DNA from: Zhongshania aquatica
Lineage (GTDB): Bacteria; Pseudomonadota; Gammaproteobacteria; Pseudomonadales; Spongiibacteraceae
NCBI RefSeq assembly: GCF_027257955.1
Contig: NZ_JANZNQ010000003.1
Coordinates: forward strand, 1 to 64,000
DNA length: 64,000 nucleotides
Direction: 5' to 3'
Within the stretch, counting starts at the first letter, position 1; each line of letters starts with the position of its first letter. This document shows, piece after piece, positions 1,156 to 34,066 of this stretch. The translations under genes and the position numbers were made by a program. The notes below the pieces were generated by a model. It was not told where the DNA came from. It saw nothing but the letters and a program-made list of their open reading frames with translations, and did not search any database.

Positions 1156-5212
<4,057 letters not shown>

Positions 5213-12903: not shown

Positions 12904-12954
12904 GACATCCGCTAAACAAAGTATAGGCATCAAAAAAAGGCACCTTGGCTAACA

Positions 12955-14358: not shown

Positions 14359-14369
14359 GGATAGTCGCG

Positions 14370-15092
14370 ATGAATCCTGCGTCGGCGTCATTGGAGTTTG
14401 TCGCTAAAACGGACTGTCTCACTCTCGCTGGTTTTAAGGGGGTGTGCTTATTCACCCATTTCAATCCCCTACATTACAGCGATGAGTTATTTGCTGTCTA
14501 CGGCGTGCAATTTCCCTCGGCCCTAAACAGTGCTAACAGTAAAAGGAAAGCTGCATTTTTAGCTGGACGGATTTCGGCTAACCTCGCATTTTTGAAGTTA
14601 GGATTAACACCTCAAACTGTGGGAATAGGTACCCATCGAAAACCTTTATGGCCGAAATCAGCTATAGGATCTATTAGTCATCACAGCAACACCGGATATT
14701 GCATGTTGATGCATCGGCCGGTTAACTTATCGCTCCAAACTGCCGTGGGGATTGATGTTGAGTCGGTGCTACCAGCGAATGAATGTCAATTACTCGCGCC
14801 CAGCGTGATATCTATACCAGAAACACAATTGCTATTAGAAAACTATCACGGACTGGATCGCGCACTAACCCTTGCATTCTCAGCTAAAGAGGCTGTATTC
14901 AAGGCGATCTACCCCGCTGTCGGTCAGTATTTCGATTTTTTAGATGTTCGTATATCAACAGTCTCTATTGAGACGGCAACATTAGAGATAACATTAGTGA
15001 AAGACCTTTCTCCAGAATTCCTCAAGGGCCATGTCTTTAAAGCACACTACCAACTTGACGACAAAAAGGTGATTAGTTGGGTGCTTCCATAA
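14370..15092 (+). CDS. 4'-phosphopantetheinyl transferase, EntD/Sfp type
   Basis: Transfers the phosphopantetheine arm of coenzyme A onto carrier-domain serines, converting them to the holo form. The three family motifs are present: SISHH near residue 101, GIDVE with Asp129 and Glu131 (magnesium ligands), and FSAKEAVFKA near 170-179 with the catalytic Lys/Glu pair. Length of 240 aa fits the EntD branch. It lies 11 bases after the glycosyltransferase, so it is the dedicated activator of the NRPS carrier domain (Ser1040). It may also load the carrier domain in the separate operon at 25591, since no other such gene is in the window. Confidence 0.92.
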   Translation: MNPASASLEFVAKTDCLTLAGFKGVCLFTHFNPLHYSDELFAVYGVQFPSALNSANSKRKAAFLAGRISANLAFLKLGLTPQTVGIGTHRKPLWPKSAIGSISHHSNTGYCMLMHRPVNLSLQTAVGIDVESVLPANECQLLAPSVISIPETQLLLENYHGLDRALTLAFSAKEAVFKAIYPAVGQYFDFLDVRISTVSIETATLEITLVKDLSPEFLKGHVFKAHYQLDDKKVISWVLP

Positions 15093-15191
15093 TAATGACG
15101 ATTCGATTCTCATCGTCATAGCCCCCTTTTAAAATTGTGTTAAACGCCTTACTCTCTCGTGCAGCGATACAACGATCGAATAGGTTAATAC

Positions 15192-16097
15192 ATGCACGAC
15201 CATCACCACCATCACACCGCTTCTGAACGCATCGGCTGGGCCTTTGCCCTAAATTTCTGCTTTACGATTATCGAATTCATCGGCGGCTGGTTAACAAATA
15301 GTACGGCCATTATGGCCGATGCGGTGCACGATCTCGGTGACTGCCTGGCAATTGGTATGGCGTGGTGGTTGAACAAGCTTGGCGCCAAAGAAGCCAATAG
15401 CCGTTTTAGTTACGGCTTTAGTCGCTTTTCGTTATTAGGCGCGTTAATCAACGGTGTGATTCTTGTATTGGGTTCTTTATGGGTTCTCAGTGAAGCTATC
15501 CCCCGGCTTTTAAACCCTCAAATGCCGGATGCGCAAGGAATGCTGGGCTTAGCTGTATTGGGTATTGCCGTAAATGGCTATGCGGCATATAAACTAAACG
15601 ATGGCAAAACTCTGAATGAGCGGATGCTAAACTGGCATTTACTCGAGGATGTTTTGGGTTGGGTGGCGATCTTCATCGTATCCATTGTGTTGATGTTTGT
15701 GGAATTACCGATTCTTGATCCGGTTTTATCGATTGGCTTCACACTGTTTATATTATTTAACGTCGCTAAAAACCTGACCGAAACCCTGCGCTTATTTTTA
15801 CAGGCAACCCCCGATCACGAATTGCGCGAGCAGATCTTAGAAAATTTAGCTGCGCTAGATCACGTTAGCGATATACATCACCTACACCTTTGGTCTCTGG
15901 ATGGCGAACAACATGTTTTAACGGCGCACCTGCTGTTAAAACAACATTATGAGCAAACCGAGCTACTCCGTTTAAAAGTATTAATTGCTAGCGCGATGAA
16001 AGGTTTTCCACTTAGTCACACCACGATCGAGTTTGAATTCCCCGATGAATCTTGTCGCGACGATGCGGCGAATGAACTAGCCCACCATCATCACTAA
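15192..16097 (+). CDS. cation diffusion facilitator, zinc exporter (CzcD/ZitB-like)
   Basis: Inner-membrane Zn(II)/H+ antiporter of the CDF family. The N-terminus is MHDHHHHH and the C-terminus ends HHHH, both likely metal-gathering tails. Six membrane segments are evident. The transport site has HDLGD in TM2 (His46, Asp50) and HLLED in TM5, the 2-His/2-Asp set linked to Zn/Cd. A cytoplasmic domain with HHLHLWSLDGEQHVLTAHL follows. It works in parallel with the CzcCBA pump: CDF lifts metal to the periplasm, RND moves it out. It stands alone, about 100 bases after the phosphopantetheinyl transferase. Confidence 0.92.
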   Translation: MHDHHHHHTASERIGWAFALNFCFTIIEFIGGWLTNSTAIMADAVHDLGDCLAIGMAWWLNKLGAKEANSRFSYGFSRFSLLGALINGVILVLGSLWVLSEAIPRLLNPQMPDAQGMLGLAVLGIAVNGYAAYKLNDGKTLNERMLNWHLLEDVLGWVAIFIVSIVLMFVELPILDPVLSIGFTLFILFNVAKNLTETLRLFLQATPDHELREQILENLAALDHVSDIHHLHLWSLDGEQHVLTAHLLLKQHYEQTELLRLKVLIASAMKGFPLSHTTIEFEFPDESCRDDAANELAHHHH

Positions 16098-19450: not shown

Positions 19451-19481
19451 TTGACCCTCCCATGATGGGAGGCATTAACCT
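19451..19481 (+). promoter_or_regulatory. CueR-type promoter of the copper ATPase gene
   Basis: TTGACC (-35, 19451-19456) and TAACCT (-10, 19476-19481) are 19 bases apart. The dyad CCTCCC ATGAT GGGAGG (19456-19472) fills the spacer. The over-long spacer with a central GC dyad is the hallmark of MerR-family copper promoters, and a CueR gene lies just downstream. Copper-loaded CueR would twist the DNA and activate transcription. Confidence 0.88.
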
Positions 19482-19506
19482 CAGTGGCGTAGGGTCAAAG
19501 TTGTGT

Positions 19507-19512
19507 AAGGAG
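19507..19512 (+). promoter_or_regulatory. ribosome binding site fixing the copper ATPase start
   Basis: AAGGAG, 6 bases before the ATG at 19519. This rules out the upstream in-frame ATG at 19462, which lies inside the CueR operator. Confidence 0.85.
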
Positions 19513-19518
19513 CACGGC

Positions 19519-21960
19519 ATGTCAGCACAAATCAACGAACTGAAGGAAATAGAACTTCCGATCATGGGCATGAGCTGCGCCTCATGCGCCGGACGTGCCG
19601 AAAAATCGCTTAAAGCCTTAGATGGTGTTGATTCGGTGCAGGTAAATCTGGCGACAGAGTCTGCGTATGTCGCGCTGGATAAGGAAGTATCACTGGAAAC
19701 ACTATGCTCCGCCATAAAACACGCGGGCTACTCAGTAGCGACCGAAGAGTTTCAAATTCTAATTACTGGTATGAGCTGCGCCTCATGCGTCGGCCGCGTG
19801 GAAAAATCGATTTATACAATCCCAGAGGTAATTGAAGTCAATGTGAACTTGGCTACTGAATCCGCTTACGTAAAGGTATTAAAGGGCCGAGTGACTAATT
19901 CTGACATTATTTCCGCCATCAAAAATGCGGGCTACGCAGCAACCACACCCGGTGAGGAATTAAATCCAGAAGGTTCCGATACACCAAGCAAACAGAATAC
20001 AAATTCAAACACTCAGCACAGCAAAGAAAGTCGCCATTTATTCATTGCAGCTTGCTTATCAGCGCCCCTAGTACTGGGGATGCTAGCAAGTAGCATCGGT
20101 CTCAATGCTATGCCGCCACCTTGGCTGCAATTTCTGATTGCCACGCCAATTCAGTTTTGGCTAGGTGCCCGTTTTTATCGTGCAGCATGGTATGCCCTTA
20201 AAGCGCGTACTGGAAATATGGATTTACTAGTCGCCATTGGTACGAGCGCAAGCTACGGTCTGAGTGTATTCGAATTACTCAAACAGTATGTCATTCAACC
20301 CAGTCATACCATGGGGCACTACTATTTTGAAGCATCCGCCGTTGTCATCACTCTAATACTCCTCGGTAAGTGGTTAGAGCGGCGCGCTAAACAGCAAACC
20401 ACCGAAGCAATAAAGGCATTGCAATCCTTGCGTCCGAACACCGCGAGACTCCGCAAGAACAATGTGGATACTGTAACCCCAATAGAGCATATACGCAGCG
20501 GTGATATTGTCGTGGTAAAGCCCGGAGAACGAGTTCCTGTTGATGGTTCGATTATTGAAGGAAGTGGCTATCTCGACGAATCGATGATTACCGGCGAGAG
20601 CATGCCGGTGCATAAATCCGTAGGCGACTCTCTCACCGGCGGAGTTATCAATACTGATGCATTGCTTCTCATTAAGACCACTGCGGTGGGCGCAGAAACA
20701 ACTCTCGCACGTATTATTCGCTTAGTGGAAAGTGCGCAAGCAGCGAAAGCACCAATTCAAAGCCTTGTAGATAAAGTCAGCATGATTTTTGTGCCGGTGG
20801 TTATTGCAATCGCTATCGCGACTTTAGTGGCTTGGTTTTTGTATAACGGCGATATTCAAAGTGCCATTATCAATGCCGTGGCGGTATTAGTCATCGCCTG
20901 CCCCTGCGCGTTGGGATTAGCGACACCCGCAGCAATTATGACCGGGACAGGTGTTGCCGCCCGGCACGGCATTCTAATCAAAGACGCACAAGCATTGGAG
21001 TATGCTCATAACATCAATACCGTGGTCTTCGATAAAACTGGCACGCTGACCGTCGGCAAGCCAAGCTTACGGGAGTATGTTGCCTGCGATGGCGATACAG
21101 ACAAACTAATGAGCGTTTCTGCCTCTCTCCAAAAAGGTAGTGATCACCCACTGGCCCAGGCGATTCTGAACGAGGCTGCCGACAAAACGTTTTCTATTGC
21201 CTCTGCAAAGGAATCGAAGGCCCTTGCCGGACGTGGAGTGTCGGCAACTGTAAACGGTAAGTTTTTTTTACTCGGCAATACTCGCCTAATGCAAGAATAC
21301 AAGGTGTCTTTGACAGGCTTAGAGTCCAAAGCCAAAGAATTGGAGAACGAAGGCAATACTATATCGTGGCTTGCTGAAGCGGGCGACACACCCAGCTTGA
21401 TCGGTTTGCTTGCATTCGGCGATGAAATAAAGCCCTCTGCGAAGTTAGCGATTGAGCGCCTTAGTAATAAGGGTATAAAAACGGTGATGATCACCGGTGA
21501 TAATGAAGGTAGCGCCCGCGCGGTTGCCGCTAAATTAGGCTTGCACGACTATATTGCCAACGTTCTTCCCGAGGGCAAAGCCGACGCCATTCGGGAGCTA
21601 CGTAACGCTAACAATATTGTTGCTATGGTGGGCGACGGTATCAATGATGCCCCCGCCTTAGCTGCGGCTGATGTTGGCATTGCCATGGCGACCGGTACTG
21701 ATGTTGCCATGCATACTGCGGGAATCACGCTAATGCGTGGCGATCCAGCGCTCATTGCAGATGCCATAGATATTTCCAAACGAAGTTATCAAAAAATTCG
21801 CCAAAACTTATTTTGGGCTTTTATCTATAACTTCCTCGGAATACCTTTAGCCGCGAGTGGATTGCTCAGCCCGGTTATCGCGGGCGCGGCAATGGCATTT
21901 AGTAGCGTGAGTGTTATTAGTAATGCGCTATTATTGAAACGTTGGAAACCAAAGGCTTGA
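19519..21960 (+). CDS. copA: copper-exporting P1B-1 ATPase
   Basis: Inner-membrane Cu(I) pump moving copper from cytoplasm to periplasm using ATP. Two N-terminal heavy-metal domains carry GMSCASC (Cys20/Cys23 and Cys87/Cys90). The membrane CPC motif is in VIACPCALG, followed by DKTGTLT (phosphorylated Asp), SDHPLA and GDGINDAPAL. The last two helices have the P1B-1 ligands YNFLGIP and MAFSSVSVISNA. From the ATG at 19519 it is 813 aa, normal length. This start follows an AAGGAG site; a longer frame from 19462 would begin inside the operator. Expression should be copper-induced through CueR, encoded 58 bases downstream. Confidence 0.96.
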   Translation: MSAQINELKEIELPIMGMSCASCAGRAEKSLKALDGVDSVQVNLATESAYVALDKEVSLETLCSAIKHAGYSVATEEFQILITGMSCASCVGRVEKSIYTIPEVIEVNVNLATESAYVKVLKGRVTNSDIISAIKNAGYAATTPGEELNPEGSDTPSKQNTNSNTQHSKESRHLFIAACLSAPLVLGMLASSIGLNAMPPPWLQFLIATPIQFWLGARFYRAAWYALKARTGNMDLLVAIGTSASYGLSVFELLKQYVIQPSHTMGHYYFEASAVVITLILLGKWLERRAKQQTTEAIKALQSLRPNTARLRKNNVDTVTPIEHIRSGDIVVVKPGERVPVDGSIIEGSGYLDESMITGESMPVHKSVGDSLTGGVINTDALLLIKTTAVGAETTLARIIRLVESAQAAKAPIQSLVDKVSMIFVPVVIAIAIATLVAWFLYNGDIQSAIINAVAVLVIACPCALGLATPAAIMTGTGVAARHGILIKDAQALEYAHNINTVVFDKTGTLTVGKPSLREYVACDGDTDKLMSVSASLQKGSDHPLAQAILNEAADKTFSIASAKESKALAGRGVSATVNGKFFLLGNTRLMQEYKVSLTGLESKAKELENEGNTISWLAEAGDTPSLIGLLAFGDEIKPSAKLAIERLSNKGIKTVMITGDNEGSARAVAAKLGLHDYIANVLPEGKADAIRELRNANNIVAMVGDGINDAPALAAADVGIAMATGTDVAMHTAGITLMRGDPALIADAIDISKRSYQKIRQNLFWAFIYNFLGIPLAASGLLSPVIAGAAMAFSSVSVISNALLLKRWKPKA

Positions 21961-22018
21961 GCCAAGTCAAATACAGATTAGCGCAGATGGAAAAAGATAT
22001 TTACGAGGTAGCACGAGT

Positions 22019-22426
22019 ATGAATATTGGCGAGGCAGCTAAGGCCAGTGGAATATCTGTAAAGATGATTCGCCATTACGAATCACTTGGTCTAATAAAAG
22101 AGGCCGAGCGCACCACAGCCGGGTATCGTCTTTATTCCGAAAGTGATATTCACAGCCTGAGTTTTATTAAAAGCGCGCGATCACTGGGATTTTCTTTGGC
22201 CCAAATAGAGCAGTTGTTGTCACTTTGGGCAGATCGAGACAGAGCAAGTGCCGACGTCAAGGCCCTAGCAACAGAACATATCGAAGAGTTAAATATTAAA
22301 ATACGCGAACTAACTGCAATGCGTGATTTACTAGCCGACTTAGCGTCAACTTGTCACGGTGATAATCGCGCTGAGTGCCCTATTCTCTCGGGCTTGGAAC
22401 GCGACCACAGTACAGTGGATATGTAA
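22019..22426 (+). CDS. cueR: MerR-family copper-responsive regulator CueR
   Basis: Copper sensor and transcription activator. The N-terminal winged helix starts MNIGEAAKASGISVKMIRHY. A dimerisation helix and a metal loop follow: Cys112 and Cys120 in CHGDNRAEC, matching E. coli CueR positions, plus Ser77, the residue that distinguishes sensors of +1 metal ions. It is 135 aa, full length. It probably controls the promoter at 19451 and so its own operon, since it lies directly after copA on the same strand. Confidence 0.94.
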   Translation: MNIGEAAKASGISVKMIRHYESLGLIKEAERTTAGYRLYSESDIHSLSFIKSARSLGFSLAQIEQLLSLWADRDRASADVKALATEHIEELNIKIRELTAMRDLLADLASTCHGDNRAECPILSGLERDHSTVDM

Positions 22427-22437
22427 GCTAAATTTTA

Positions 22438-22845
22438 ATGAAAACGTACCGCACTAAAAATATAGCCCTTTGGATTATGCTAGTATTTTTCAGCAAAATG
22501 GCCTTCGCTATTGTCCAGCCACTGCAAGCCTTAACATTGTCTACGACGCCTGCAAAGATGATGTTTTCGCATCAACATGAAGAAGCGCTAAACAAATCAA
22601 CTTTAGTAATGAATAGTCATTGTCAACATGATGAGGGCGGCGAATCCGACTCTCCAACGAATCATCACAACGCAGATTGCAATACGAAATGCGATTGCTG
22701 TATCGGTCATTGCAACACACCGGTCCTGTTTATCACGGGCGTTAATTACTCTGATAAACACCTTCAGCACGTTAGCGATCAACGTCCTCTCTTTAAAGCT
22801 CTGCCACTTGTCACCTCGTTGTTTAGACCGCCGATTTTGGGCTAA
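22438..22845 (+). CDS. small secreted His/Cys-rich protein in copper operon
   Basis: Exported small protein of 135 aa with a signal peptide (IALWIMLVFFSKMAFA), a His-rich middle and a cysteine cluster CNTKCDCCIGHC (Cys81, 85, 87, 88, 92). The tail is TSLFRPPILG. The design matches the protein encoded at 6626: signal, His/Asp region, Cys cluster, then TSL(Y/F)RPPI at the end, although the rest differs. A periplasmic copper-binding or sensing-modulating role is plausible. It starts 11 bases after the cueR stop, so it is in the copper operon. No named family can be assigned with confidence. Confidence 0.75.
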   Translation: MKTYRTKNIALWIMLVFFSKMAFAIVQPLQALTLSTTPAKMMFSHQHEEALNKSTLVMNSHCQHDEGGESDSPTNHHNADCNTKCDCCIGHCNTPVLFITGVNYSDKHLQHVSDQRPLFKALPLVTSLFRPPILG

Positions 22846-22913
22846 CACAGGCTCATTCCGCCAGTGATTCGGGTTTTTCAGTAATACTGCATACCTCTAT
22901 GTAAATTTAGCGT

Positions 22914-22929
22914 ACATGAATCTTCATGT
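22914..22929. promoter_or_regulatory. perfect inverted repeat upstream of multicopper oxidase
   Basis: ACATGAA TC TTCATGT, perfect 7-base arms with a 2-base centre, 45 bases before the oxidase start. It lacks the MerR-type promoter geometry, so it may be bound by a different regulator such as a two-component response regulator. No such regulator gene is in the window. Confidence 0.5.
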
Positions 22930-22973
22930 TTATTGCTCGATTCTTATGCCTTAGCTAATGGTTAGGAACTATT

Positions 22974-24842
22974 ATGAAAACAACATCCTACGGTCTTTCA
23001 CGCCGACGCTTCGTTAAAGGCGCTGCCGGTGCCGGCGCTTTAATAGGTATTGGCGGTGCGCCCCTGAGTTTTGGCTCAGATAGTCTGCCAAAGATGAAAT
23101 CTCCAGAAGTACTACAGGGGCGCCATTTCGAACTCAATATTGGCTATCAACCGGTCAATTTTACCGGCAGTCACCGTATTGCCACCGCCATCAACGGCAG
23201 TGTTCCAGGCCCGATTTTGCGCTGGAAGGAAGGCGAACACATCACCCTGAGAGTGCATAACCACCTTCATCACGATAGCTCTCTCCACTGGCACGGCATG
23301 ATTCTGCCAACGGGTATGGATGGCGTACCGGGAATGAGTTTTGCCGGAATAAAGCCCGGTAGTTATTTCGACTATGCATTCCAAGTTCAGCAAAACGGCA
23401 CCTATTGGTACCACAGCCACTCTGGCTTTCAGGAGCAAACCGGGGTCTATGGTGCCATAGTTATCGAGCCAGCAAATCCAGATGCGGTGACTTATGACCG
23501 CGACTACGTTGTGCAGCTTTCGGACTGGTCAGATCAGCGGCCAGAAGAAATCTACAACACCCTTAAAAAACGCGGTGACTATTACAATTTCAAGCAACCG
23601 ACGGTTAAGGATCTTTGGCAGGACATAAAAAACAAAGGGCTCTCCCAGAGCTGGGCAGACCGTCGCATGTGGAATGAGATGCGCATGAGTCGTTCCGATA
23701 TCGCGGATGTGACCGGCTATACCTATACCTACCTCATGAACGGCAATACGCCAGAACAAGGTTGGAATGGCGTTTTCAAACGCGGTGAAAAGGTGAGGCT
23801 GCGTTTTATAAATAGCGCTGCAATGACTATCTTCGATGTGCGTATTCCCGGATTAAAAATGACCGTTGTCGCCGCTGACGGACAAAATATCGAACCAGTT
23901 AGCGTCGATGAATTTCGTATAGGTGTCGCGGAAACCTACGACGCTGTTGTCGAGCCAAGTGACGATAGTGCCTATTGCGTGTTCGCGCAAAGCATAGATC
24001 GCAGCGGTTATTGCCGAGGTACACTGAGCCCAAGCCCAGACTGGCAGGCGGAAGTACCAAAAATGGACTACTCGCCTCTGCTCGCCCATAGAGATATGGG
24101 AATGGCTATGTCTGGACACGATATGGGCGCAATGGCCGGTATGGGACCAATGCAAGGTATGGATCATAGCGGTCATGATATGTCTGGCATGACACACAAT
24201 ATGGACATGGGGCAGCATAGCGACATGAATATGCAGCATGCTATGCACAAAATGCCTGTCGAAAAACCAGCCCCAGCGGGTATGGGAAGTCAGCGGAAAA
24301 TAGCGCATGTAAACACCGAATTTGGGCCGCAGGTTGATATGCGTTCACAGTCGCCAATGGACGGTTTAAGCGACCCAGGCGTCGGTCTTCGAGATCACCA
24401 AGAACGTTACGGACGCCGAGTACTGCGTTATTCAGATTTGCGTAATTTATATCAAACCGAAGATCGTCGTGATCCTCAGCGGGAAGTTCAATTGCATCTA
24501 ACAGGCAATATGGAACGCTATATGTGGTCCATGAATGGCATACCCTTTGCCGATGCCGAGCCATTGCAATTTAAATATGGGGAGCGGCTGCGTATCGTTT
24601 TGGTTAATGACTCAATGATGACGCATCCGATACATATGCACGGTGTGTGGAGCGAGTTAGAAACTGGCGATCCTATGCATATACCTAAAAAGCATACCGT
24701 CATAGTTCAGCCGGGCTCAAAAATAAGTTATTTGGTGAGCGCCGACGCGGTTGGTCGCTGGGCCTACCACTGCCACCTGCTCTACCATATGCCGGGAATG
24801 ATGCGGGAAGTGCATATTAGTGAACAAGGAGACCTATCATGA
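22974..24842 (+). CDS. multicopper oxidase, CopA/PcoA copper-resistance family
   Basis: Periplasmic copper-dependent oxidase that protects against Cu(I), 622 aa. A Tat signal (LSRRRFVKGAAGAGAL) directs folded export. Copper ligands are visible in HWHGM, WYHSHSG, HPIHMHG and the C-terminal HCHLLYHMPGM that binds the type 1 and trinuclear coppers. A Met/His-rich insert at roughly residues 375-430 has repeated HDM/MSG/MGP units and probably binds extra copper; such inserts are usual in PcoA-type enzymes. The stop overlaps the copB start by four bases (ATGA), so the two are translationally coupled. The symbol copA is avoided because the ATPase here already has it. Confidence 0.94.
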   Translation: MKTTSYGLSRRRFVKGAAGAGALIGIGGAPLSFGSDSLPKMKSPEVLQGRHFELNIGYQPVNFTGSHRIATAINGSVPGPILRWKEGEHITLRVHNHLHHDSSLHWHGMILPTGMDGVPGMSFAGIKPGSYFDYAFQVQQNGTYWYHSHSGFQEQTGVYGAIVIEPANPDAVTYDRDYVVQLSDWSDQRPEEIYNTLKKRGDYYNFKQPTVKDLWQDIKNKGLSQSWADRRMWNEMRMSRSDIADVTGYTYTYLMNGNTPEQGWNGVFKRGEKVRLRFINSAAMTIFDVRIPGLKMTVVAADGQNIEPVSVDEFRIGVAETYDAVVEPSDDSAYCVFAQSIDRSGYCRGTLSPSPDWQAEVPKMDYSPLLAHRDMGMAMSGHDMGAMAGMGPMQGMDHSGHDMSGMTHNMDMGQHSDMNMQHAMHKMPVEKPAPAGMGSQRKIAHVNTEFGPQVDMRSQSPMDGLSDPGVGLRDHQERYGRRVLRYSDLRNLYQTEDRRDPQREVQLHLTGNMERYMWSMNGIPFADAEPLQFKYGERLRIVLVNDSMMTHPIHMHGVWSELETGDPMHIPKKHTVIVQPGSKISYLVSADAVGRWAYHCHLLYHMPGMMREVHISEQGDLS

Positions 24843-25549
24843 AATACGGTTTCTTAACTCCCGTTTTAGCCTGTTTACTTACAAACCTTACACCCTACGC
24901 ATGGGCTCATTCAGACGCTGATCCTATTGTCAGCATGCTGTCGTTCAAACAGTTCGAGCAAAGCAAGATAGGAGATGACACGGCAGCAATTTGGAATGTA
25001 GATGCCTGGATCGGCAAGGATTATGACAAGCTGTGGATTAAAACGAATGGCGAATTCGCACACGGACAGCGGCAGGACAGCAGCATTGAAGTCTTGTATA
25101 GCCGCGCCGTTGCGACGTACTGGGATATACAAACAGGTTGGCGCGGTGATTTTAATGACACAGAAAATCGTCAGTGGTTCGCTTTCGGGCTGCAGGGCCT
25201 AACGCCCTATTTCTTTGAAACCGAGCTGACATTCTATCTCGGTGAACACGGCCAAACCGCGTTAAAAATCGACACTGAGTATGAGCTTTTATTTACTCAA
25301 AAACTCATTCTCTCACCAGAGCTTGAGGTTAACATCCATGGTCGTAACGACCGCCAAACTGGAACCGGTGGAGGTCTATCTGATATTGAAGCTGGCCTAA
25401 GATTACGTTATGAATTCACGAGAAAATTTGCGCCGTATATCGGTGTAAACTATCACAAGAAATACGGCCAAACGGCGGAGTACAGTCGAGATTCTGGAAC
25501 AGATACCGAGACAATGAGTTGGCTTATTGGCCTACGATTCTGGTTTTAA
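24839..25549 (+). CDS. copB: CopB/PcoB outer-membrane copper-resistance protein
   Basis: Outer-membrane beta-barrel partner of the multicopper oxidase. It has a signal peptide ending around PYAWA and then alternating strands with aromatic ends, closing with the barrel C-terminus LIGLRFWF. Family features include WIGKDYDKLWIKTNGE, the tract around LYSRAVATYWDIQTGWRGD, and PYIGVNYHKKYG. It is 236 aa and lacks the long Met/His-rich N-terminus found in some PcoB proteins. It overlaps the oxidase gene by four bases and ends at a hairpin shared with the converging operon. Confidence 0.92.
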   Translation: MKYGFLTPVLACLLTNLTPYAWAHSDADPIVSMLSFKQFEQSKIGDDTAAIWNVDAWIGKDYDKLWIKTNGEFAHGQRQDSSIEVLYSRAVATYWDIQTGWRGDFNDTENRQWFAFGLQGLTPYFFETELTFYLGEHGQTALKIDTEYELLFTQKLILSPELEVNIHGRNDRQTGTGGGLSDIEAGLRLRYEFTRKFAPYIGVNYHKKYGQTAEYSRDSGTDTETMSWLIGLRFWF

Positions 25550-25554
25550 TGTTA

Positions 25555-25588
25555 ACGTCGTCCCTGAGAATTGTCTTAGGAACGACGT
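25555..25588. terminator. bidirectional hairpin between copB and the adenylation gene
   Basis: Arms starting ACGTCGT (25555) and ending ACGACGT (25588) form a stem of about 15 pairs with one mismatch and one wobble around the loop ATTG. It exactly fills the gap between two converging genes. Only short T runs flank it. Confidence 0.65.
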
Positions 25589-25590
25589 CT

Positions 25591-28299
25591 TTATTCACGT
25601 TTGCGCACAGTGTTTTCAGGGATGCTCAGAATGATATTCGCGCTATTGTTGGCGTAAAATTCATTATCTGTGTTCGCAAATATGCTGCTCGTCAAAAACA
25701 CGTTTAGCCCACCGTTATTTAGTAAATCTGCGAGTATACGGTGCCCCAGCTTTCCCGAACTCAATGTTATCTCGACCCTATTGCCACCAAATAATCTAGA
25801 AATAACACGCGCATACTGCCGGTCTTTTTCGACCAATCTAGAATAACTTAGTAGCACTTGCGGACGATGGCCGTTTAATTGGGCGCGCCAGATTGTATAA
25901 ATTCGCTCTAAAATTTTAATGACACGTTTATTTTTGTGGAAGCGACCGCCGATACACAAGACCAGCTCTGCTCGCAATTGATAAGCCGCTATTAAGGCAG
26001 GATAACTTCCCGCGCTACAGCCCATCGTTCGGTATGTGCCGTACTGGCTTAACTGCTTATGATTGACGAGCCAGTTAATAACATCGCTGACCTTGTCTCC
26101 TAGAAATGGAATACCCTTTCGGTAAGATTGGTTTCTGGGCTCCGCGAGAATTAATACATCGTAATCCGCGGAATTAGTATGCTGAAGTAATACGGGGTTT
26201 GAAATCATCATGCTGCGATCACCTCTTCCCGGAAAGCATATCAAAAGGCCTTTTTCGCTTGGCACTCCGGCGCCAATAAATACCATGGCGGTGGGCGCGA
26301 TTCGCTGTAATACAAAGGCTTCCGGCTTTAGCGTGAGGGACTCAGATAATTGTTTCTGCAGCGTGTCTAGCCAGCTGCCGATGGCTAACTGATACTTTTG
26401 ATTATGGTTTGCCGCGACGAGTTGACCTTGACGATTTCGTCTACTTAAAAGGTCAATATCAAGCGGTGTCAGGCGATATTCAAGCGTCGATAGCGCCCGA
26501 TTTAAATGGGCGACTGTCGGACAGACCCTAACGATGCGGCGAAAAAATCGTACTATATAAGGTAATTCCTCTGTGATGACATCGTTGTTGGAATACTGAA
26601 CCTTAGTATCGATACGAGACTGCTGCGATTGCAGTGTTAATACCCGCGCAACAAGATTGCCAAGGTAGCGAAAACTAGCATACTCGTTGGGATGAATAAC
26701 AACGTCATAGGCCAGCTCCAAGACCACTAATAATTCCATGCGGCCGATTGAATCTAAGTCGATTTTTCGCAGCGGAATATCCGTGTTACCAAGCTCGAAT
26801 TCAGCGATTTGCGAAGCTCTTAGTGGTTTTTTTGCCTTGGAACTTAAGGCTTGGATAATAGTTTTACGTATTGAACCAGCTTTCGCGGAAAGCGTCGCTG
26901 CGTCTTGGCGAACGATTTTTCCCGCCGCATTCCTCGGGATCTCGTCGACAATAATAAGTTGCCGCGGTGCTCTTAAGCCAAGTCGTTGCTTTAAAAATTT
27001 TTCTAAGTCTTTCAGTCTAGGTCTCACCTCTTTTGAAAATACCACAAGGGCAACGGGAATATTGCCGTGTACAGCGGACGGTTTGGAGAAGACCGCGGTG
27101 TCTACGATATTTGGAAATTGGCTAATTTCGGACTCAATATCTTGCGGGTAAATATTTATGCTATTGAAGACGAACATATCGTCGCTTCGGCCGTATAAAT
27201 GAATGCGCGCTTCTTTATCAAGATAGGCAATATCACCCGTGTGGAACCAGCCATCAATAAGTCGGCTTGCGGTCAATTCAGGCTTGCCAGAATAGCCACG
27301 AAACATACCTTTACAACGTACAAGCAACTCCCCAGCTTCGCCGCTAGCAAGTATTTTTCCACTTGCGCTACGCACTTGTACTTCTATTCCCGGCAGCGCT
27401 CGTCCAACACTATTATCCGAGCCGGCATCATCTGGGTCAGTAAAGGCGATAGCGCCGGTTTCTGTTGTTCCGTAGCCCGCCCGTAAATCGCGAGTAATTT
27501 TATTTCGCAGTGCTGTTCGAAGCGTCATTGAGACGTGGGAACCACCGAGTTTTAATTGAATATTAGACAAGGCCTGAATGCCGGGTATTGCCAGTAGTTC
27601 TTGGGCTTGAAACGCTGACACATGCATAACGTTGACGTTGAGAGATTGGCACTGACTGAGCAGCGAGTTATCTCTAATATCGATAAAAACGTTGGTGGCG
27701 CCCATCGCCACGCAGTAGAGGCGATGACGCTTAGCAAAATTGTGTTCCATTGAGGCCAAACAGACAAATCGCTCGTGGGCGGAAACGATGTGCCGATGGG
27801 CCTGTGCAACAATATCACTGTCATGATGAACGACCAGCTTTGGCGTACCAGTAGTCCCCGACGTTGAAAACAACAGCTTCGCTGTTGTAGCTGCGTTTCG
27901 ACCGTCGGTATTTACTTGCGAAACGATAGCGCTTTTATCATCGACAGCGTAGCTTTCATCAATAACATGACTAACACCGCAATTCTTATTGATTGCCTGC
28001 TGTGTCTCTTCAGATTCGTATAAGGGTATAGTGCAAGATGTTGCACCTACGTAGGCAGCGGCAAGGCAGAAAGTGAGATGTTGTGTGTCGTCGGCGCATT
28101 TAATTCCGAGCAGTGAACTAGATGGAATTCCTGCCTCATAGAATTTGTAAGCCTGAAGCTGCACAAGTGAAGCGAGTTTGGCGTATGACAGCGTAACATC
28201 CATACAGACAATGGCGTCGTGGTCGGGATGCATTCTTGCGTGGTAGAAGAGTCGGCCAATTAATGAGTGATATTCCTTAGCTTGAGCGGCTAACGTCAC
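25591..28299 (-). CDS. adenylation-carrier-alpha/beta hydrolase fusion protein
   Basis: Three-part enzyme of 902 aa. An ANL adenylation domain (about 12-480) has FSTSGTTGTPK (144-154), YGTTE (276-280), FHTGD and PRNAAGK with Lys461. A carrier domain (about 495-555) has LDSIGRMEL with Ser517 for phosphopantetheine. After a linker, a C-terminal domain (about 660-880) shows an alpha/beta-hydrolase nucleophile elbow GCSAG (Ser762) and a late GHR (His853). It would activate an acid, hold it as a thioester, and release or transfer it. There is no condensation domain. It overlaps the methyltransferase stop by four bases. The adenylation code does not resemble a standard amino-acid NRPS domain, so the substrate is unknown. 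Confidence 0.85.
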   Translation of the reverse strand: MTLAAQAKEYHSLIGRLFYHARMHPDHDAIVCMDVTLSYAKLASLVQLQAYKFYEAGIPSSSLLGIKCADDTQHLTFCLAAAYVGATSCTIPLYESEETQQAINKNCGVSHVIDESYAVDDKSAIVSQVNTDGRNAATTAKLLFSTSGTTGTPKLVVHHDSDIVAQAHRHIVSAHERFVCLASMEHNFAKRHRLYCVAMGATNVFIDIRDNSLLSQCQSLNVNVMHVSAFQAQELLAIPGIQALSNIQLKLGGSHVSMTLRTALRNKITRDLRAGYGTTETGAIAFTDPDDAGSDNSVGRALPGIEVQVRSASGKILASGEAGELLVRCKGMFRGYSGKPELTASRLIDGWFHTGDIAYLDKEARIHLYGRSDDMFVFNSINIYPQDIESEISQFPNIVDTAVFSKPSAVHGNIPVALVVFSKEVRPRLKDLEKFLKQRLGLRAPRQLIIVDEIPRNAAGKIVRQDAATLSAKAGSIRKTIIQALSSKAKKPLRASQIAEFELGNTDIPLRKIDLDSIGRMELLVVLELAYDVVIHPNEYASFRYLGNLVARVLTLQSQQSRIDTKVQYSNNDVITEELPYIVRFFRRIVRVCPTVAHLNRALSTLEYRLTPLDIDLLSRRNRQGQLVAANHNQKYQLAIGSWLDTLQKQLSESLTLKPEAFVLQRIAPTAMVFIGAGVPSEKGLLICFPGRGDRSMMISNPVLLQHTNSADYDVLILAEPRNQSYRKGIPFLGDKVSDVINWLVNHKQLSQYGTYRTMGCSAGSYPALIAAYQLRAELVLCIGGRFHKNKRVIKILERIYTIWRAQLNGHRPQVLLSYSRLVEKDRQYARVISRLFGGNRVEITLSSGKLGHRILADLLNNGGLNVFLTSSIFANTDNEFYANNSANIILSIPENTVRKRE

Positions 28300-29042
28300 T
28301 TTGTGACCTTAAACAACACGTGCAAGGGTTCATTTTTCAGCGGCGAAAAAAATGCCTCATCAATGGCGATAAGTTCTGGTGTCACGGTTAATTCTTTTAC
28401 TTCGGGCATGGTGGTAAAGCCCGCATTCCGCAAACAATCGAAATAATCACTAAAGGTTTTGTGCACACATTGCACGTGCAAGGGCTCCCCGCTTCGCTTC
28501 CAAATCTCCCCTTCAAACTTTTGATCCACGTCGGCAAAATAATTCTTGCCCGTGGAATTAAAGTAAAACGGCGCTGATTGTTTGTTGTGCACAAAGGGAA
28601 AAAACGGATGGGGTACGCTAAAAATGAATTGTCCTCCCTCTTCCAAGGACTGGTACACCATTGAAAATACCCGTTGCATTTCATCCACCCGAAGGTAGTT
28701 AAACAAAAATACCGCTACACTTAGATCGAACTTTCGTTCAGGAACGAACTCCAGCACATTAAGTGTGCGATACTCTATACCCAGTTGATCTTCCGCTTCT
28801 TGAACCTGCGCGGCGTCAATCATCTGTGCTGATAGATCTACGCCAAGGTAGTCGCCTGCTCCCCGACGCTTCAATTCACGCGCACAATAACCTTCGCCAC
28901 AACCAATATCTAGCACCGAGCGATTATTGAGTTCACCACATGCGTCAAACACGAAGGGTCGTGCAGTAAAATCGGATAAGGAACTGGGTTCTAAGCGTAG
29001 CCATTTCTTGGCGTTGTCGTCGTAAACTTTTCTAGTATCCAA
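28296..29042 (-). CDS. class I SAM-dependent methyltransferase
   Basis: Methyltransferase of 248 aa with the SAM-binding motif VLDIGCGEGY (43-52), the acidic GVDLS at the end of strand 2, and LEEGGQFIFSVPHP as the later motif. The sequence resembles small-molecule O- or N-methyltransferases of the Methyltransf_11/25 group. It is the middle gene of an overlapping operon: it starts 11 bases before the diiron-oxygenase stop and ends inside the start of the adenylation protein. The likely job is methylating a carrier-bound or released intermediate; the position of methylation cannot be deduced. Confidence 0.87.
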   Translation of the reverse strand: MDTRKVYDDNAKKWLRLEPSSLSDFTARPFVFDACGELNNRSVLDIGCGEGYCARELKRRGAGDYLGVDLSAQMIDAAQVQEAEDQLGIEYRTLNVLEFVPERKFDLSVAVFLFNYLRVDEMQRVFSMVYQSLEEGGQFIFSVPHPFFPFVHNKQSAPFYFNSTGKNYFADVDQKFEGEIWKRSGEPLHVQCVHKTFSDYFDCLRNAGFTTMPEVKELTVTPELIAIDEAFFSPLKNEPLHVLFKVTK

Positions 29043-29817
29043 AGTTTGAAATTCCCTTTGACTCAGGAGTAGTTACGGTTGTTAAGCACTGTGCTCGCTC
29101 CAACAAGGCATCCCAGAATGCTGTCCGCAAGTCGAGCGCGGACTTAACACCAAATTCTATTTGGGCACACGCCTCTTCGTCGGTAGCAAGCTCGCTAGCA
29201 ACTATCAACATTTGCTCTGCATGATCATCATCGCAAGAGCTATGTAAATCAAAAAATACACGTTGCTGCATAGTCAGCGCGTCGTAACTTTTAAGGCCGG
29301 ACAGAATCTGCTGGTAAATATTAGATACAATTAACTCCGTCCCAATTCCAATGGCGCCAACTCCAACATACTCGTTAGTATTGCAAAGCGCTAGAAACCG
29401 CCGGGACCATAATCCGCCGGCTAGATCCTCAGATAGACTAGTAGGATCTTCGGGATTTACGCCCAACGCTTGCTGAAAACGCTGAAATAACTGCGCGTGT
29501 GATTGCCCCTCAATACTGGCTAATACCTCGCTTGGCAATTCGCCATCGGCAATATGTCCCTTCTCTTCCGCTAAATTAGACAGGAGTATTTTCTGGTGAG
29601 AAACATTCCGTAAATTCGAGATCAGCGCTTTTAAATAGCGAGTAAATTGCGAACTGTACAAACCATATTGAAAAGCAAAATCTCTCCACGCCATATCAAC
29701 GTCAGGAAAATCGCTCTTTTGTAGCGCTTGCAGATAAGGATGGGATACAGCTGAGGATTTTAGTGCTTCTTCACCTAAACGTCTGACGAAAGTTGCCGCT
29801 TTGTAGTTTTTATTCAT
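29032..29817 (-). CDS. haem-oxygenase-like diiron oxidase/oxygenase (HDO) family protein
   Basis: All-helical iron enzyme of 261 aa in the TENA/haem-oxygenase-like fold. Candidate iron ligands follow the HDO layout: Glu85-x2-His88 (EEKGH), Glu161 (GTELI) and His192-x3-Asp196-x2-His199 (HSSCDDDH). Family members include UndA (alkene formation), BesC (C-C cleavage of chloro-lysine) and SznF (N-oxidation), so the chemistry ranges widely. First gene of the three-gene operon; its end overlaps the methyltransferase start by 11 bases. It therefore most likely oxidises the amine or acid that the operon handles. Which reaction it runs cannot be told from sequence. Confidence 0.82.
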   Translation of the reverse strand: MNKNYKAATFVRRLGEEALKSSAVSHPYLQALQKSDFPDVDMAWRDFAFQYGLYSSQFTRYLKALISNLRNVSHQKILLSNLAEEKGHIADGELPSEVLASIEGQSHAQLFQRFQQALGVNPEDPTSLSEDLAGGLWSRRFLALCNTNEYVGVGAIGIGTELIVSNIYQQILSGLKSYDALTMQQRVFFDLHSSCDDDHAEQMLIVASELATDEEACAQIEFGVKSALDLRTAFWDALLERAQCLTTVTTPESKGISNFGY

Positions 29818-30040
29818 GATGGCTTTTCGAATTGTATGACAGTCGGCTAATTATTTTGTGACAAAAACCCTATCAATTGCAACAAGCTTGAGCCTACCTC
29901 GTTTAATCCATCGTAAATCGGCCTACTTTGTATGACCTCGACAGTTATGCGCCTCAAAACAGTGCAAAAACTTTTCCTTCTGAGAAGCTCATAAAGTAAG
30001 AGGTTTATCTCAATGACCACTGCGGATCGGTAGTTAAAAT

Positions 30041-31471
30041 CTATCTTTGCAAAGCTTCATTGGCTTCGTCTATCCATTCATCAACGCTTTTAAACTCACT
30101 TTTATTTCCATGGGTAGCAACGCCAAGAACGATCTCAGCAGATAAGCGACCATGTTGACCAGGAATTACAACTGCTCTACTCGCCTCCACTAAGCGCAGG
30201 CCGATCTGATTTGTGTCATCTTCTAGGGTGTCGTGGAGCAAAATGATAAAGGTAGTGTCGTTGTAGCGAGAGATCATATCACCCGCCCTAAGTTTACTTT
30301 TTAGTGTATTTGCTTGTTCTGCTATAAACGTGTCCGCCCCGTCTTTTAGTACTTTTTTAATCGCCTTTAAGTTGCGAATTTCTATCATCAAAATACTTAA
30401 AATCCGTCCTGCGCGACATGCTAAACTAAATGAGTCTGGTAAGTATCCATTTATAAAGTCTCTGGAAAACACACCGCTCACTGGATCTAATCGGCTTGCT
30501 ATATCTACCTTTTCCGCTTTGCGAGACTTGCCGCGGGTCTTCGTCATATTTTGCAGACTAAGCTCTGCGAGTGTTTCATTTGCTTGTTCCAATAATTCAG
30601 ACTGACTCTCGCTTTCAGTCAACTTCACATTAAACAACGTTTCCATTTCAGGAATTTGGTCAAGTAAAAAGCTAATTAAGCCGTCTATTTTTGCCGCGGG
30701 TAGCCCTAAGATACGCTGAGCCTGCATGTACAATTGTTTCCGTGCATCAGCAGACTCACCAAGAATGATAAAATCAGCGGCCGTACCGGACACACAAACA
30801 CAGCGCACAAACTGTCCATCCACATCTGTTTTAGAAAACTGAACAGGCTTATGGCTAGTAGCAATGGCTAGAGTCGTTCGGTCTGCAAGCCCCCAATGTT
30901 TACTCAGCCAAGCACCAGCTTCCGCGTGATCACCGCCCATTCGTTCAATTTCATATTCACGAACACGTTGATGGAACACTTGGTCACTTCGTAAATCAGT
31001 GTAGAAATCAGGATGTAATCGATCTATTGCGATCATCCCTATATCTTGTAGCAAACCCGCAAGAAATAATTCTTCAACCGCACGCTCCCCCGTTATACGC
31101 CCAAGTTCCCGGGCAGCGACGGCGGCAATCAGAGAACGACGCCACAACAAAGGGTAGTGAAGACCAGATTGAGATTGCTCTTTTAGTGAGGAAGTTAGAG
31201 AGAAACTCAAGGCGAGATTTACCGTGGTATCTAAACCAAGCAGTACAATAGCGCGGCGCAAATTTTCTATTTTTTGTTCATTGGCATACATCGGTGAGTT
31301 GGCGAACTGCAATGTCTTCGCCGCCAAAGCGGGATCGCTCGCTATTAACGATGCTAAATTTTGAATATCTACCTCACCCGAACGCGCCATCTCAACGATT
31401 TTGGCAACAACACGAGGGATGGACGGCAGGCGCGCAGTATTGTCAATAAATGGGCTAAGATCTATCGCCAT
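30041..31471 (-). CDS. HDOD domain protein with degenerate GGDEF domain
   Basis: Signalling protein of 476 aa. The N-terminal HDOD domain (about 8-210) starts LPSIPRVVAKI and contains LLQDIGM and HAEAGAWL, where a true HD enzyme would have its metal residues. A middle helix leads to a GGDEF-like domain (about 325-470). Its signature is RYNDTTF (402-408) instead of RYGGDEF, so diguanylate cyclase activity should be lost; it may act as a binding or dimerisation module. No membrane segment is seen, so it is cytoplasmic. It stands alone, 223 bases upstream of the HDO operon on the same strand. Confidence 0.85.
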   Translation of the reverse strand: MAIDLSPFIDNTARLPSIPRVVAKIVEMARSGEVDIQNLASLIASDPALAAKTLQFANSPMYANEQKIENLRRAIVLLGLDTTVNLALSFSLTSSLKEQSQSGLHYPLLWRRSLIAAVAARELGRITGERAVEELFLAGLLQDIGMIAIDRLHPDFYTDLRSDQVFHQRVREYEIERMGGDHAEAGAWLSKHWGLADRTTLAIATSHKPVQFSKTDVDGQFVRCVCVSGTAADFIILGESADARKQLYMQAQRILGLPAAKIDGLISFLLDQIPEMETLFNVKLTESESQSELLEQANETLAELSLQNMTKTRGKSRKAEKVDIASRLDPVSGVFSRDFINGYLPDSFSLACRAGRILSILMIEIRNLKAIKKVLKDGADTFIAEQANTLKSKLRAGDMISRYNDTTFIILLHDTLEDDTNQIGLRLVEASRAVVIPGQHGRLSAEIVLGVATHGNKSEFKSVDEWIDEANEALQR

Positions 31472-31572
31472 GTACTATTCCAGATTAGTTGATTGCCCAT
31501 ATAAACCTAGAGGCAAAAATCTGACAATACGGGTTAGCCGTTGTTTGGCCGTGATTAATGCGGATTATAAGC

Positions 31573-32376
31573 CTATTTCTCAAACACAGTGGCAATCTGT
31601 CGGCTAAACATTACCGCTTTTCCATCAGGCCCCCACACGGTAGCGTAGTTATGAAAATAGCCATTCCCGGCCGCTTGGGTTTTGTAATCGTAAAACCACC
31701 AATCAGACATACTTGCCGTAGGCAGTGCTTGCGGGAACTCTAGATACCAGCTCAATGAACTACCAATGCCTGGCGGTGTGATCATATTGAGACCGGGCAT
31801 TGGCGGAACATCTCCTAAAGCGACCAATGCCGATAAGTCGATTGACCCCGGCTCTTTAAAGCGCAGCCACATAGAAAAATCGGCGGAATCTGCGCCGCTA
31901 AATGGCAGGCTGCCGGTGCACATCCGCATCTCATAATGCTTGGTAAAGGCAGGTGTTAAACCTTCGATAAAATGAAAAGCTTCGCACTCTTCCGGTTCGG
32001 GTACGGTTGGCATCTCTGGCCCCGGTAAAGCAATTGCCGATTGACGGTCTTTGCCGAAGGCGGCACTCACCGTGGCCCCGACTTCACCGCCGCACAGGAT
32101 TTCGCCCTGAATATGAGTTACTGACCCACCAACCCGTAATTCGCGAAGCACAATACGGTGCTCTCCCACCGGCACCGGCCCCACAAACATAACCGCGAGT
32201 GAGCGTAAACGTCGATCAGCGGGAACTTGCTTACTCATGGCCTTTACTATCAAGGCTGCACTTAAGCCTCCAAAAGCGGTTCGTCCTTGTAGCCATGACG
32301 CCTCAATGGACGCACTGTACTCATTTTCAACTCCAGTAGCCTGAACGCTATTCAGTAGAGCCTCAAAATTCTGCAT
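31573..32376 (-). CDS. acyl-CoA thioesterase, double hot-dog family
   Basis: Predicted acyl-CoA hydrolase of 267 aa with two hot-dog halves. The first contains WLQGRTAFGGLSAALI, the second SSLSWYLEFPQ and the ending YATVWGPDGKAVMFSRQ, both usual in the TesB-like/4HBT_3 family. It would release free fatty acid from CoA. It follows the acyl-CoA ligase gene by about 60 bases in the same direction, giving an activation/hydrolysis pair. Chain length preference cannot be read. Confidence 0.82.
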   Translation of the reverse strand: MQNFEALLNSVQATGVENEYSASIEASWLQGRTAFGGLSAALIVKAMSKQVPADRRLRSLAVMFVGPVPVGEHRIVLRELRVGGSVTHIQGEILCGGEVGATVSAAFGKDRQSAIALPGPEMPTVPEPEECEAFHFIEGLTPAFTKHYEMRMCTGSLPFSGADSADFSMWLRFKEPGSIDLSALVALGDVPPMPGLNMITPPGIGSSLSWYLEFPQALPTASMSDWWFYDYKTQAAGNGYFHNYATVWGPDGKAVMFSRQIATVFEK

Positions 32377-32437
32377 TTGTATTCCTTAGTTCAAAAAGGG
32401 TTCGTACGCACAGTGTATTATTGGCCTCAATACCGGC

Positions 32438-34066
32438 TTACTCGCTCGCCCACCTGAAATCTGCGTGCTGCGCCCGAATGTCTTTTTTGCTTAATTTACC
32501 AGTGGCTGTATGAGGTAGAGAATCTACAAACAGACATTCCTCCGGTATCCACCATTTTGCGACCTTGTCATCAAACCACGCCAACATCTCTTCTTGGCTT
32601 AGCTCTTCCTCTTCTTTGAGGATAACAAGGAGCAAAGGACGCTCGCTCCATTTTGGATGAGGCATACCAACAACGGCCGCCTCTGCTACCTTTGGGTGGT
32701 TGACCGCACAGTTCTCAAGCTCAATAGAGCTAATCCACTCACCGCCAGACTTGATAACGTCTTTGACACGGTCAGTGATCTGCATATAGCCGTATTGATC
32801 GATGCTTGCGACGTCACCGGTTTCAAACCAGCCGTCATCGTCTAGCGTTTGGCCATCGTAGCGATAGTATTCATTGATAATCCATGGTCCGCGCACCTTA
32901 ACCGCGCCAGCGCTTTTCCCGTCCCATGGTAAGGATTTGTTATCCTCATCCACTATTTTCATTTCCACACCGAATACTGGGCGCCCCTGTTTTAAGCGCA
33001 TTTTGTCGTATTCATCACTCGGTAGTTCACTCACCGCACTAGGAACATTGCCGTTAAACGTGCCCAGCGGGTTCATTTCGGTCATGCCCCAACCTTGCTG
33101 CACGTCAACACCGTACTTTTTGCGGAACACATCAAAAATAGTAAACGGGCAGGCCGCACCACCTACTGTTAAGCGGTTGAGGCTTTCGACAGTACTTCCA
33201 GATTTGTTTAAATAATCTAACAACGCCAACCACACCGTTGGTACCCCAGCCGAAACGGTAACCTTTTCGTCATTAATCAGTTTACACAGCGTTTCACCAC
33301 AGCCCATTTTATGACCGGGCATAACTAACTTAGCCCCAGTCATCGGCGCCGAGTACACCATGCCCCAACCATTAACATGGAACATGGGAACAATAGGCAG
33401 CGCGACATCTTTGACCGATAAACCAAATACGTCAGGTGCGATGCTGGCATAGCAGTGCAGCAAAGTAGAACGGTGGGTATACATCACGCCTTTTGGATTA
33501 CCTGTGGTGCCCGACGTGTAACACAGGGCTGATGGTGTATTTTCATCAAGCTCTGGCCAGTCGAATTCTGACGACTGCCCTTCTAATAAGGTTTCGTAGC
33601 AATGTGCGTTGTTGAGCTTGGTTTCTGGCATATGTGCTTGGTCGGTCATTACCACAAAACCTTTAACGTCGGGCATAAGGTGTTGCAGTGATTCGAGTAA
33701 AGGCACCATGGTTAGATCGATGAATATCCACTTATCTTGACCATGATTCACAATGTATTCAATTTGCTCAGGAAACAGCCGCGGATTTATGGTGTGGCAA
33801 ACAAATCCGCTGCAAGATACAGCGTAATAAATTTCTAAATGGCGATAATCATTCCATGCGAATGTTGCCACCGTGTCGCCACGCTCTAAACCAAGGGATT
33901 TTAAGACATTTGCCAAGCGTCTAACGCGCACAAATGCGTCTCGATAGGTATAACGATGCCTAGGGTTGTCAGCGGTAACGGACACGACCTCGACACTGCC
34001 ATTTACTTGTTCTGCATGCTTCATGAGTGAGGTGATGGTGAGTTGGGTGTTCATCATGGGAATCAT
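32438..34066 (-). CDS. fatty-acid--CoA ligase (AlkK/FadD-like)
   Basis: AMP-forming acyl-CoA synthetase, 542 aa. The P-loop [17 protein letters not shown], the GWGMTEMNP block, [16 protein letters not shown] and the C-terminal [10 protein letters not shown] lysine are all present. It resembles the AlkK medium/long-chain ligases used in alkane and fatty-acid catabolism. It is divergent from the acyl-CoA dehydrogenase, 199 bases away, suggesting joint control. The start MIPMMNTQ has several possible Met codons within five residues. Confidence 0.9.

Follow-up and report, generated by a model that had tools for sequence, protein, structure and literature searches.

The first 64,000 nucleotides of contig NZ_JANZNQ010000003.1 of Zhongshania aquatica (positions 1–64,000; assembly GCF_027257955.1), referred to here as the window, raise the question of what a small operon of three overlapping genes makes and whether the three genes form a single fixed unit. 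The operon encodes a haem-oxygenase-like diiron oxidase (HDO), a class I S-adenosylmethionine (SAM) methyltransferase (MT) and a fusion of adenylation, carrier and hydrolase-like domains (ATH). An initial annotation had described these genes as one operon and as a minimal assembly unit. The listing of open reading frames (ORFs) indeed gives overlaps of 11 bases between HDO and MT and of 4 bases between MT and ATH, and the gene order is conserved; however, the widely conserved unit is the HDO–MT pair, to which a third gene is added that varies by clade, so that the picture of one fixed three-gene assembly line does not hold. As that annotation had also supposed, no described pathway with the HDO, MT and ATH set was found in the literature searched, most subscription journals being outside the search. 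The new element is the portable pair and not any single enzyme.

A profile search of genome contigs with the MT confirmed at least 107 relatives, of which 80 were kept (L026–L105; the counts are lower bounds), and an HDO was sought in these loci by tblastn with the window HDO as query. Among the matches listed, an HDO is present in 29 of the 35 closest loci (L026–L060; MT identity 40.8–80%) and was not found by tblastn in any of the 45 remoter loci (L061–L105; L061 has a 41% MT fragment at its contig end). The close loci without an HDO are L038, L042, L048, L049, L050 and L051, the MT of L051 lying near a contig edge. Three of them, L042, L048 and L050 from metagenome-assembled genomes (MAGs) of Planctomycetota, carry the MT with a TauD-like oxygenase in a conserved stretch that also encodes a UbiA-type prenyltransferase, a carboxypeptidase-like protein and a protein of ∼1370 residues without a Pfam match.

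Four contexts of the pair can be distinguished. Type A, as in the window, has the order HDO–MT–ATH. Type B has the order HDO–MT–TauD-like (2-oxoglutarate-type) oxygenase, sometimes with a cupin in addition, and occurs in Microbulbifer, Flavobacteriales, Rhodopirellula, Microcystis and Cyanobium, among others; the solved relatives of the one type B oxygenase tested are FrbJ, TmpA and gamma-butyrobetaine dioxygenase. HDO and cupin share a single open frame in L047 and its close copies L122–L124 and, in the reverse order, in L057, and in L054 the cupin lies upstream in a different frame. A search of eight type A genomes for the type B oxygenase found none at E 1e-15 in seven; in the eighth, G095, a match (E 1.7e-27) lies apart from the operon.

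In type C, MT and HDO, in that order, accompany an H-NOX protein and an H-NOX-associated histidine kinase. The 12 type C loci of the scan are 11 cyanobacterial loci and the betaproteobacterial L058, with a Pfam check in L030, L036 and L058; among the matches listed, H-NOX is present in 11 of the 12, the exception being L034, with one H-NOX in the genome and none in the locus. The further loci L117, L118 and L121 agree, and L119 and L120 repeat L031 and L059. The Acaryochloris locus L036 is rearranged and also contains a type B oxygenase; together with L058 it argues against mere shared descent within one order.

Type D places the pair with an ATP-grasp-like protein in amino-sugar loci. This protein was aligned in five loci; it scores 23.7 bits in L055 (cut-off 24) and has no Pfam match in L142. 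The sugar genes include a WecE-type dTDP-4-amino-4,6-dideoxygalactose transaminase (576.1 bits in L040 and 466.2 in L142, cut-off 375) and, in L055, a nearby dTDP-glucose 4,6-dehydratase (483.9 bits, cut-off 365.1), and genes for FlgK and a flagellin-family protein lie near the pair in L142. In this last locus, on an Indioceanicola profundi plasmid (7899–12396), HDO, MT, the ATP-grasp-like gene and two more genes stand directly 3′ of flagellar and glycosyltransferase-like genes. Homology between the ATP-grasp-like protein and ATH is unsupported, as is that between the type B oxygenase and a type D protein without a Pfam family (hhalign probability 0.5). The latter shows an HxD...H pattern only; a PDB search to E 1 gave it one match (61 residues, E 0.5), which was disregarded.

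The distances of HDO and MT are correlated (r = 0.80 over 34 pairs), also when type C is excluded (r = 0.73, 23 pairs), with none of 2000 permutations as high in either case and with host relatedness not removed. The comparison did not include loci with a partial MT (L060, L061), with no MT (L024, L025) or with no HDO (the six named above), the L027 duplicate L021 or any of the later-fetched loci. Type A forms one clade in both trees (support 100/100 for MT and 100/98 for HDO). In the HDO tree types A and D are jointly separated from the rest (99/99), a split that the MT tree does not contain. The branch of the type C HDOs is very long, at 3.3 changes per column, and these HDOs may therefore have been recruited separately.

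The search of genomes for the three families in this order, which the initial annotation had proposed, shows that the set recurs. Among 293 genomes sampled from the order, an HDO match is present in nine and the full set in six (the window's genome, G171, G152, G242, G095 and G107); in G207 (L023) the HDO and the MT are remoter and belong to a polysaccharide-type locus, and in G168 and G189 the HDO has a different context. The ATH hydrolase domain occurs in seven of the 293, namely the six full-set genomes and G011, and adjoins the MT in all seven and the HDO in the six whose contig reaches that far, the G011 contig starting inside the MT. The same genes in the same order were also found in the congener G1555 and in L026 (Cellvibrionales MAG), L027 (Litorivivens lipolytica, the same genome as G095) and L028 (Piscirickettsiaceae MAG). 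Such recurrence indicates more than a chance association. In 20 kb from each of five relatives of the order (L018–L022) the only window genes found beside the operon are the operon's own three; the exceptions are general AMP-ligase cross-matches, short antisense ORFs and a weak match in L019 (21% identity) to window ORF 1156–4278. The MT and its kin were also sought more widely, with seeds counted: the phylum of L030 has them in ten of 339 genomes, that of L053 in eight of 246, that of L043 in one of 296, which is the seed, and the window's class in one of 369, the window's own; the class and L043-phylum searches scored only 4–9 first-look candidates per listed genome and gave no new loci. The MT and its kin are thus rare but widespread.

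Upstream of the operon, across a gap of 223 bases, lies an HDOD-GGDEF gene on the same strand (30041–31471), and downstream are convergent copper genes for a multicopper oxidase and CopB. The G+C content of the operon is similar to that of the surrounding DNA, and promoter- and terminator-like sites at the operon did not exceed the count in shuffled sequence. Within the genus, the search of the order found the HDO in two of 12 genomes (the window's and G171). The whole set occupies the window's site in G1555, and the junction between CopB and HDOD-GGDEF measures ∼40 bases in G1554 and holds 1.5 kb of other DNA in G1553 and 5.3 kb in G171, where the set is located elsewhere; this variability fits the gain or loss of a cassette of ∼4.5 kb. 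A comparison of L152 (G1555) with window 19462–34066 gave ∼89–95% identity for the copper genes, ATH and MT and 49% for one 135-residue ORF, but only 70–75% for HDO, HDOD-GGDEF and a thioesterase, with an apparent recombination break at the MT–HDO border.

The HDO, annotated initially as a member of this family with the His-x3-Asp-x2-His set, scores 68.9 bits against PF14518 (cut-off 28.9), and has all six expected metal ligands, three His and three carboxylates: H192-x3-D196-x2-H199, E85, H107 and E161, every one invariant in 21 sequences. Their equivalence to CADD positions was read from alignments, and those positions are presumably the metal ligands of CADD. In the suggested comparison of a structural model with known HDOs, the predicted model is confident (pLDDT 92), has a haem-oxygenase-like helical fold and is nearest to HrmI, CADD and BesC. 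The 261 residues carry only HDO-type Pfam matches and no C-terminal cupin of the kind found in SznF. Membership of the BesC 4-chloroallylglycine synthase family was rejected (17.6 bits, NCBIfam equivalog cut-off 500). CADD is the top sequence match in both PDB and NCBIfam, which would favour a self-sacrificing p-aminobenzoate synthase; according to PMC11965152, CADD sacrifices Tyr27 and Lys152. The window HDO has L29 and I171 at the aligned positions and scores 55.5 bits against a family cut-off of 200. Because the sacrificial residues are absent and the score is below the cut-off, a CADD function was rejected and is considered highly improbable.

Other HDOs were seen in different surroundings. 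An HDO-like stretch on a Pantoea agglomerans plasmid (L143, 7896–9896) lies within a gene annotated as ectB, a diaminobutyrate-2-oxoglutarate transaminase, apparently an HDO–aminotransferase fusion. Remoter HDOs (26–30% identity) in L024, L025 and L144 (Burkholderia stagnalis plasmid) have a different neighbourhood, that of L144 adjoining an annotated aldolase, a second diiron oxygenase and acyl carrier proteins.

Five class I methyltransferase Pfam families match the MT well above their cut-offs (e.g. Methyltransf_25, 66.6 bits, cut-off 27), upholding its annotation as a SAM methyltransferase. It is the best conserved of the three proteins, with 69–83% identity to five orthologues compared with 51–69% for HDO and 45–65% for ATH. 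The 35 columns that are invariant in an alignment of 25 sequences from several phyla suggest that these methyltransferases share a type of substrate. In the PDB the MT comes closest to 5jdz and related chains and to 8rdl, the ToxA protein, presumably an N-methyltransferase, with a match confined to residues 30–152.

ATH had been called a self-contained adenylation–carrier protein. Its adenylation domain is clear (AMP-binding, 137.8 bits, cut-off 29.9; AMP-binding_C, 39.2 bits, cut-off 24.5), and the putative carrier keeps D516 and S517 invariant in four orthologues, but the carrier score itself is below the PF00550 cut-off. The Pfam scan did not find a condensation domain (PF00668) in ATH, as had been noted. 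In amino-acid-activating adenylation domains an Asp in the A4 core binds the α-amino group, and Asn at this position is typical of EntE-type domains. The A4 residue of ATH, N187, is invariant in four orthologues and corresponds to Asp in the window's own nonribosomal peptide synthetase (NRPS) and to Val in its methylthiopropionyl-CoA-type ligase; the Asn in place of Asp points to an acid-type rather than an amino-acid-type domain. The C-terminal third of ATH gave no Pfam match and no usable PDB match, and the model of full-length ATH is poor and was not used for a fold search. S762, D826 and H853 nevertheless follow the order of an α/β-hydrolase triad and are invariant in six sequences, including an unfused one. 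The unfused homologue, in G242, is 28% identical, has the same triad residues and lies between genes for a 91-residue carrier (PF00550, 28.6 bits, cut-off 20.8) and a 466-residue ligase with the HN...KRHRLYCV motif of ATH (L165, 7049–9726), with HDO and MT not adjoining. Thus, the three ATH domains also exist as adjacent separate genes. This unfused set adjoins diguanylate-cyclase-like and catalase-peroxidase-like genes, named by eye.

The operon is probably, with some reservation, a small pathway of the type A architecture of a widespread HDO–MT pair, in which an oxidised, methylated acid is made and then activated by ATH for release or transfer. By analogy with characterised relatives, the HDO would carry out an O2-dependent oxidation, at a dimetal centre, of a small substrate that probably derives from an amino acid, and the MT would methylate the substrate or the product of the HDO, the two together yielding an oxidised, methylated carboxylic acid. 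The adenylation domain could then activate this acid with ATP and load it onto the carrier of the same protein, from which the hydrolase-like domain may release it or pass it to an acceptor. The substrate of HDO and MT is probably free, because the pair persists in types B, C and D, where no ATH-like enzyme accompanies it. An ATP-dependent carboxylate-activating enzyme is likely to stand beside the pair in types A and D, and ATH-like adenylation, carrier or hydrolase matches were not found in L029–L060, small carriers not being otherwise sought; the simplest account is therefore a free oxidised, methylated acid with lineage-specific use.

The domain fusion of ATH and the overlap of the genes in one operon would suit a carrier-first order, in which ATH loads the starting acid, HDO and MT modify it on the carrier and the hydrolase-like domain then releases it. 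The mangotoxin HDO MboA, which is reported to act on a peptide substrate (PMC13185094), also speaks for it. However, no ATH-like match accompanies the pair in type B, C or D loci, so dependence on a dedicated carrier is not the rule (small carriers there were not systematically sought), and loading before modification appears doubtful. Also unlikely, although SznF provides a model for it, is oxidation by the HDO at nitrogen, with the MT as an N-methyltransferase and a reactive N-oxidised, perhaps nitric oxide (NO)-releasing, product: CADD and BesC are far nearer in sequence than SznF (E 0.13), the 58 matches of the Microcystis cupin at E up to 1 do not include SznF, a cupin is missing from the window HDO, as is an H-NOX match from its genome, and the methyltransferase match is restricted to the SAM-binding part.

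The H-NOX proteins of type C have about an even chance of merely regulating the pair in response to NO or O2, which would make them uninformative on the product; H-NOX and kinase are a typical sensor pair, and proximity to an O2-using enzyme fits. Nothing speaks directly against this, and types A, B and D have no H-NOX in the locus as far as searched. A more daring proposal, which is distinctly improbable, is that the pair is a portable device for one new kind of reactive N-oxidised, methylated small acid with lineage-specific outlets. The window's bacteria would turn it into a carrier-activated metabolite, cyanobacteria and a betaproteobacterium into a signal to a haem NO sensor, and a third outlet would be its use as an acyl group for 4-amino sugars of flagella or surface glycans. 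The value of the system is that a compact HDO with a conserved methyltransferase occurs in four natural contexts that constrain the product, which would be acid-activatable (types A and D), further oxidisable (type B) and able to be placed beside a haem sensor (type C). The type C link, if functional, would connect a diiron oxidase to NO-type signalling in cyanobacteria.

The coordinates are collected in Table 1. The phosphopantetheinyl transferase listed there belongs to a separate small cluster (window 8821–16097, + strand) in which a one-module NRPS (condensation, adenylation, carrier and thioesterase), a glycosyltransferase, the transferase and a cation efflux gene follow in a row.

Table 1. 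Features of the operon and a possible accessory gene in the window.
Feature	Position	Strand	Remarks
HDO gene	29032..29817	−	261 aa, ATG start, first gene of operon; ligands invariant in 21 sequences, model pLDDT 92
HDO ligand stretch, E85 to H199 (E85, H107, E161, H192, D196, H199)	29221..29565	−	Alignment, 21 sequences
MT gene, class I SAM methyltransferase	28296..29042	−	248 aa, TTG start; 69–83% identity, five orthologues
ATH gene, adenylation, carrier and hydrolase-like fusion	25591..28299	−	902 aa, GTG start; Pfam and conservation
ATH adenylation domain, residues 19–461, Asn187 in A4 core	26917..28245	−	Pfam; alignment to window NRPS
ATH carrier domain, residues 505–552, Ser517 likely phosphopantetheine site	26644..26787	−	PF00550 15.8 bits, below cut-off 20.8
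ATH hydrolase-like region, ∼residues 580–875, candidate triad S762-D826-H853	25675..26562	−	No Pfam family; triad residues conserved
Sfp-type phosphopantetheinyl transferase, outside operon	14370..15092	+	PF17837 and PF01648 over cut-off; possible activator of ATH carrier

About a dozen HDOs have been functionally validated and more than 10,000 predicted, as stated in PMC13108848. Compared with the known members HrmI, CADD, BesC and FlcD, the window HDO is ∼18–22% identical in structural alignments, and it falls below the NCBIfam cut-offs for both the CADD and the BesC families. SznF of streptozotocin biosynthesis is similar in being an HDO that works with a methylated substrate, in its case arginine, and some relatives carry a cupin in the same open frame; the window HDO itself differs in having no cupin, and its profile match to SznF reaches only E 0.13. 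ATH shares the AMP-binding fold with EntE and the acyl-CoA ligases, which are stand-alone acid-activating enzymes, and has PDB matches to both; its A4 Asn is that of EntE-type domains. It differs in its fusion to a putative carrier and a hydrolase-like domain that matches no Pfam family. Although ATH lacks a condensation domain and has an acid-type active site and an end domain that is not PF00975, it resembles the single-module NRPS with thioesterase in the same window (8821–12903) in combining an adenylation domain, a putative carrier and a hydrolase-like end domain in one protein.
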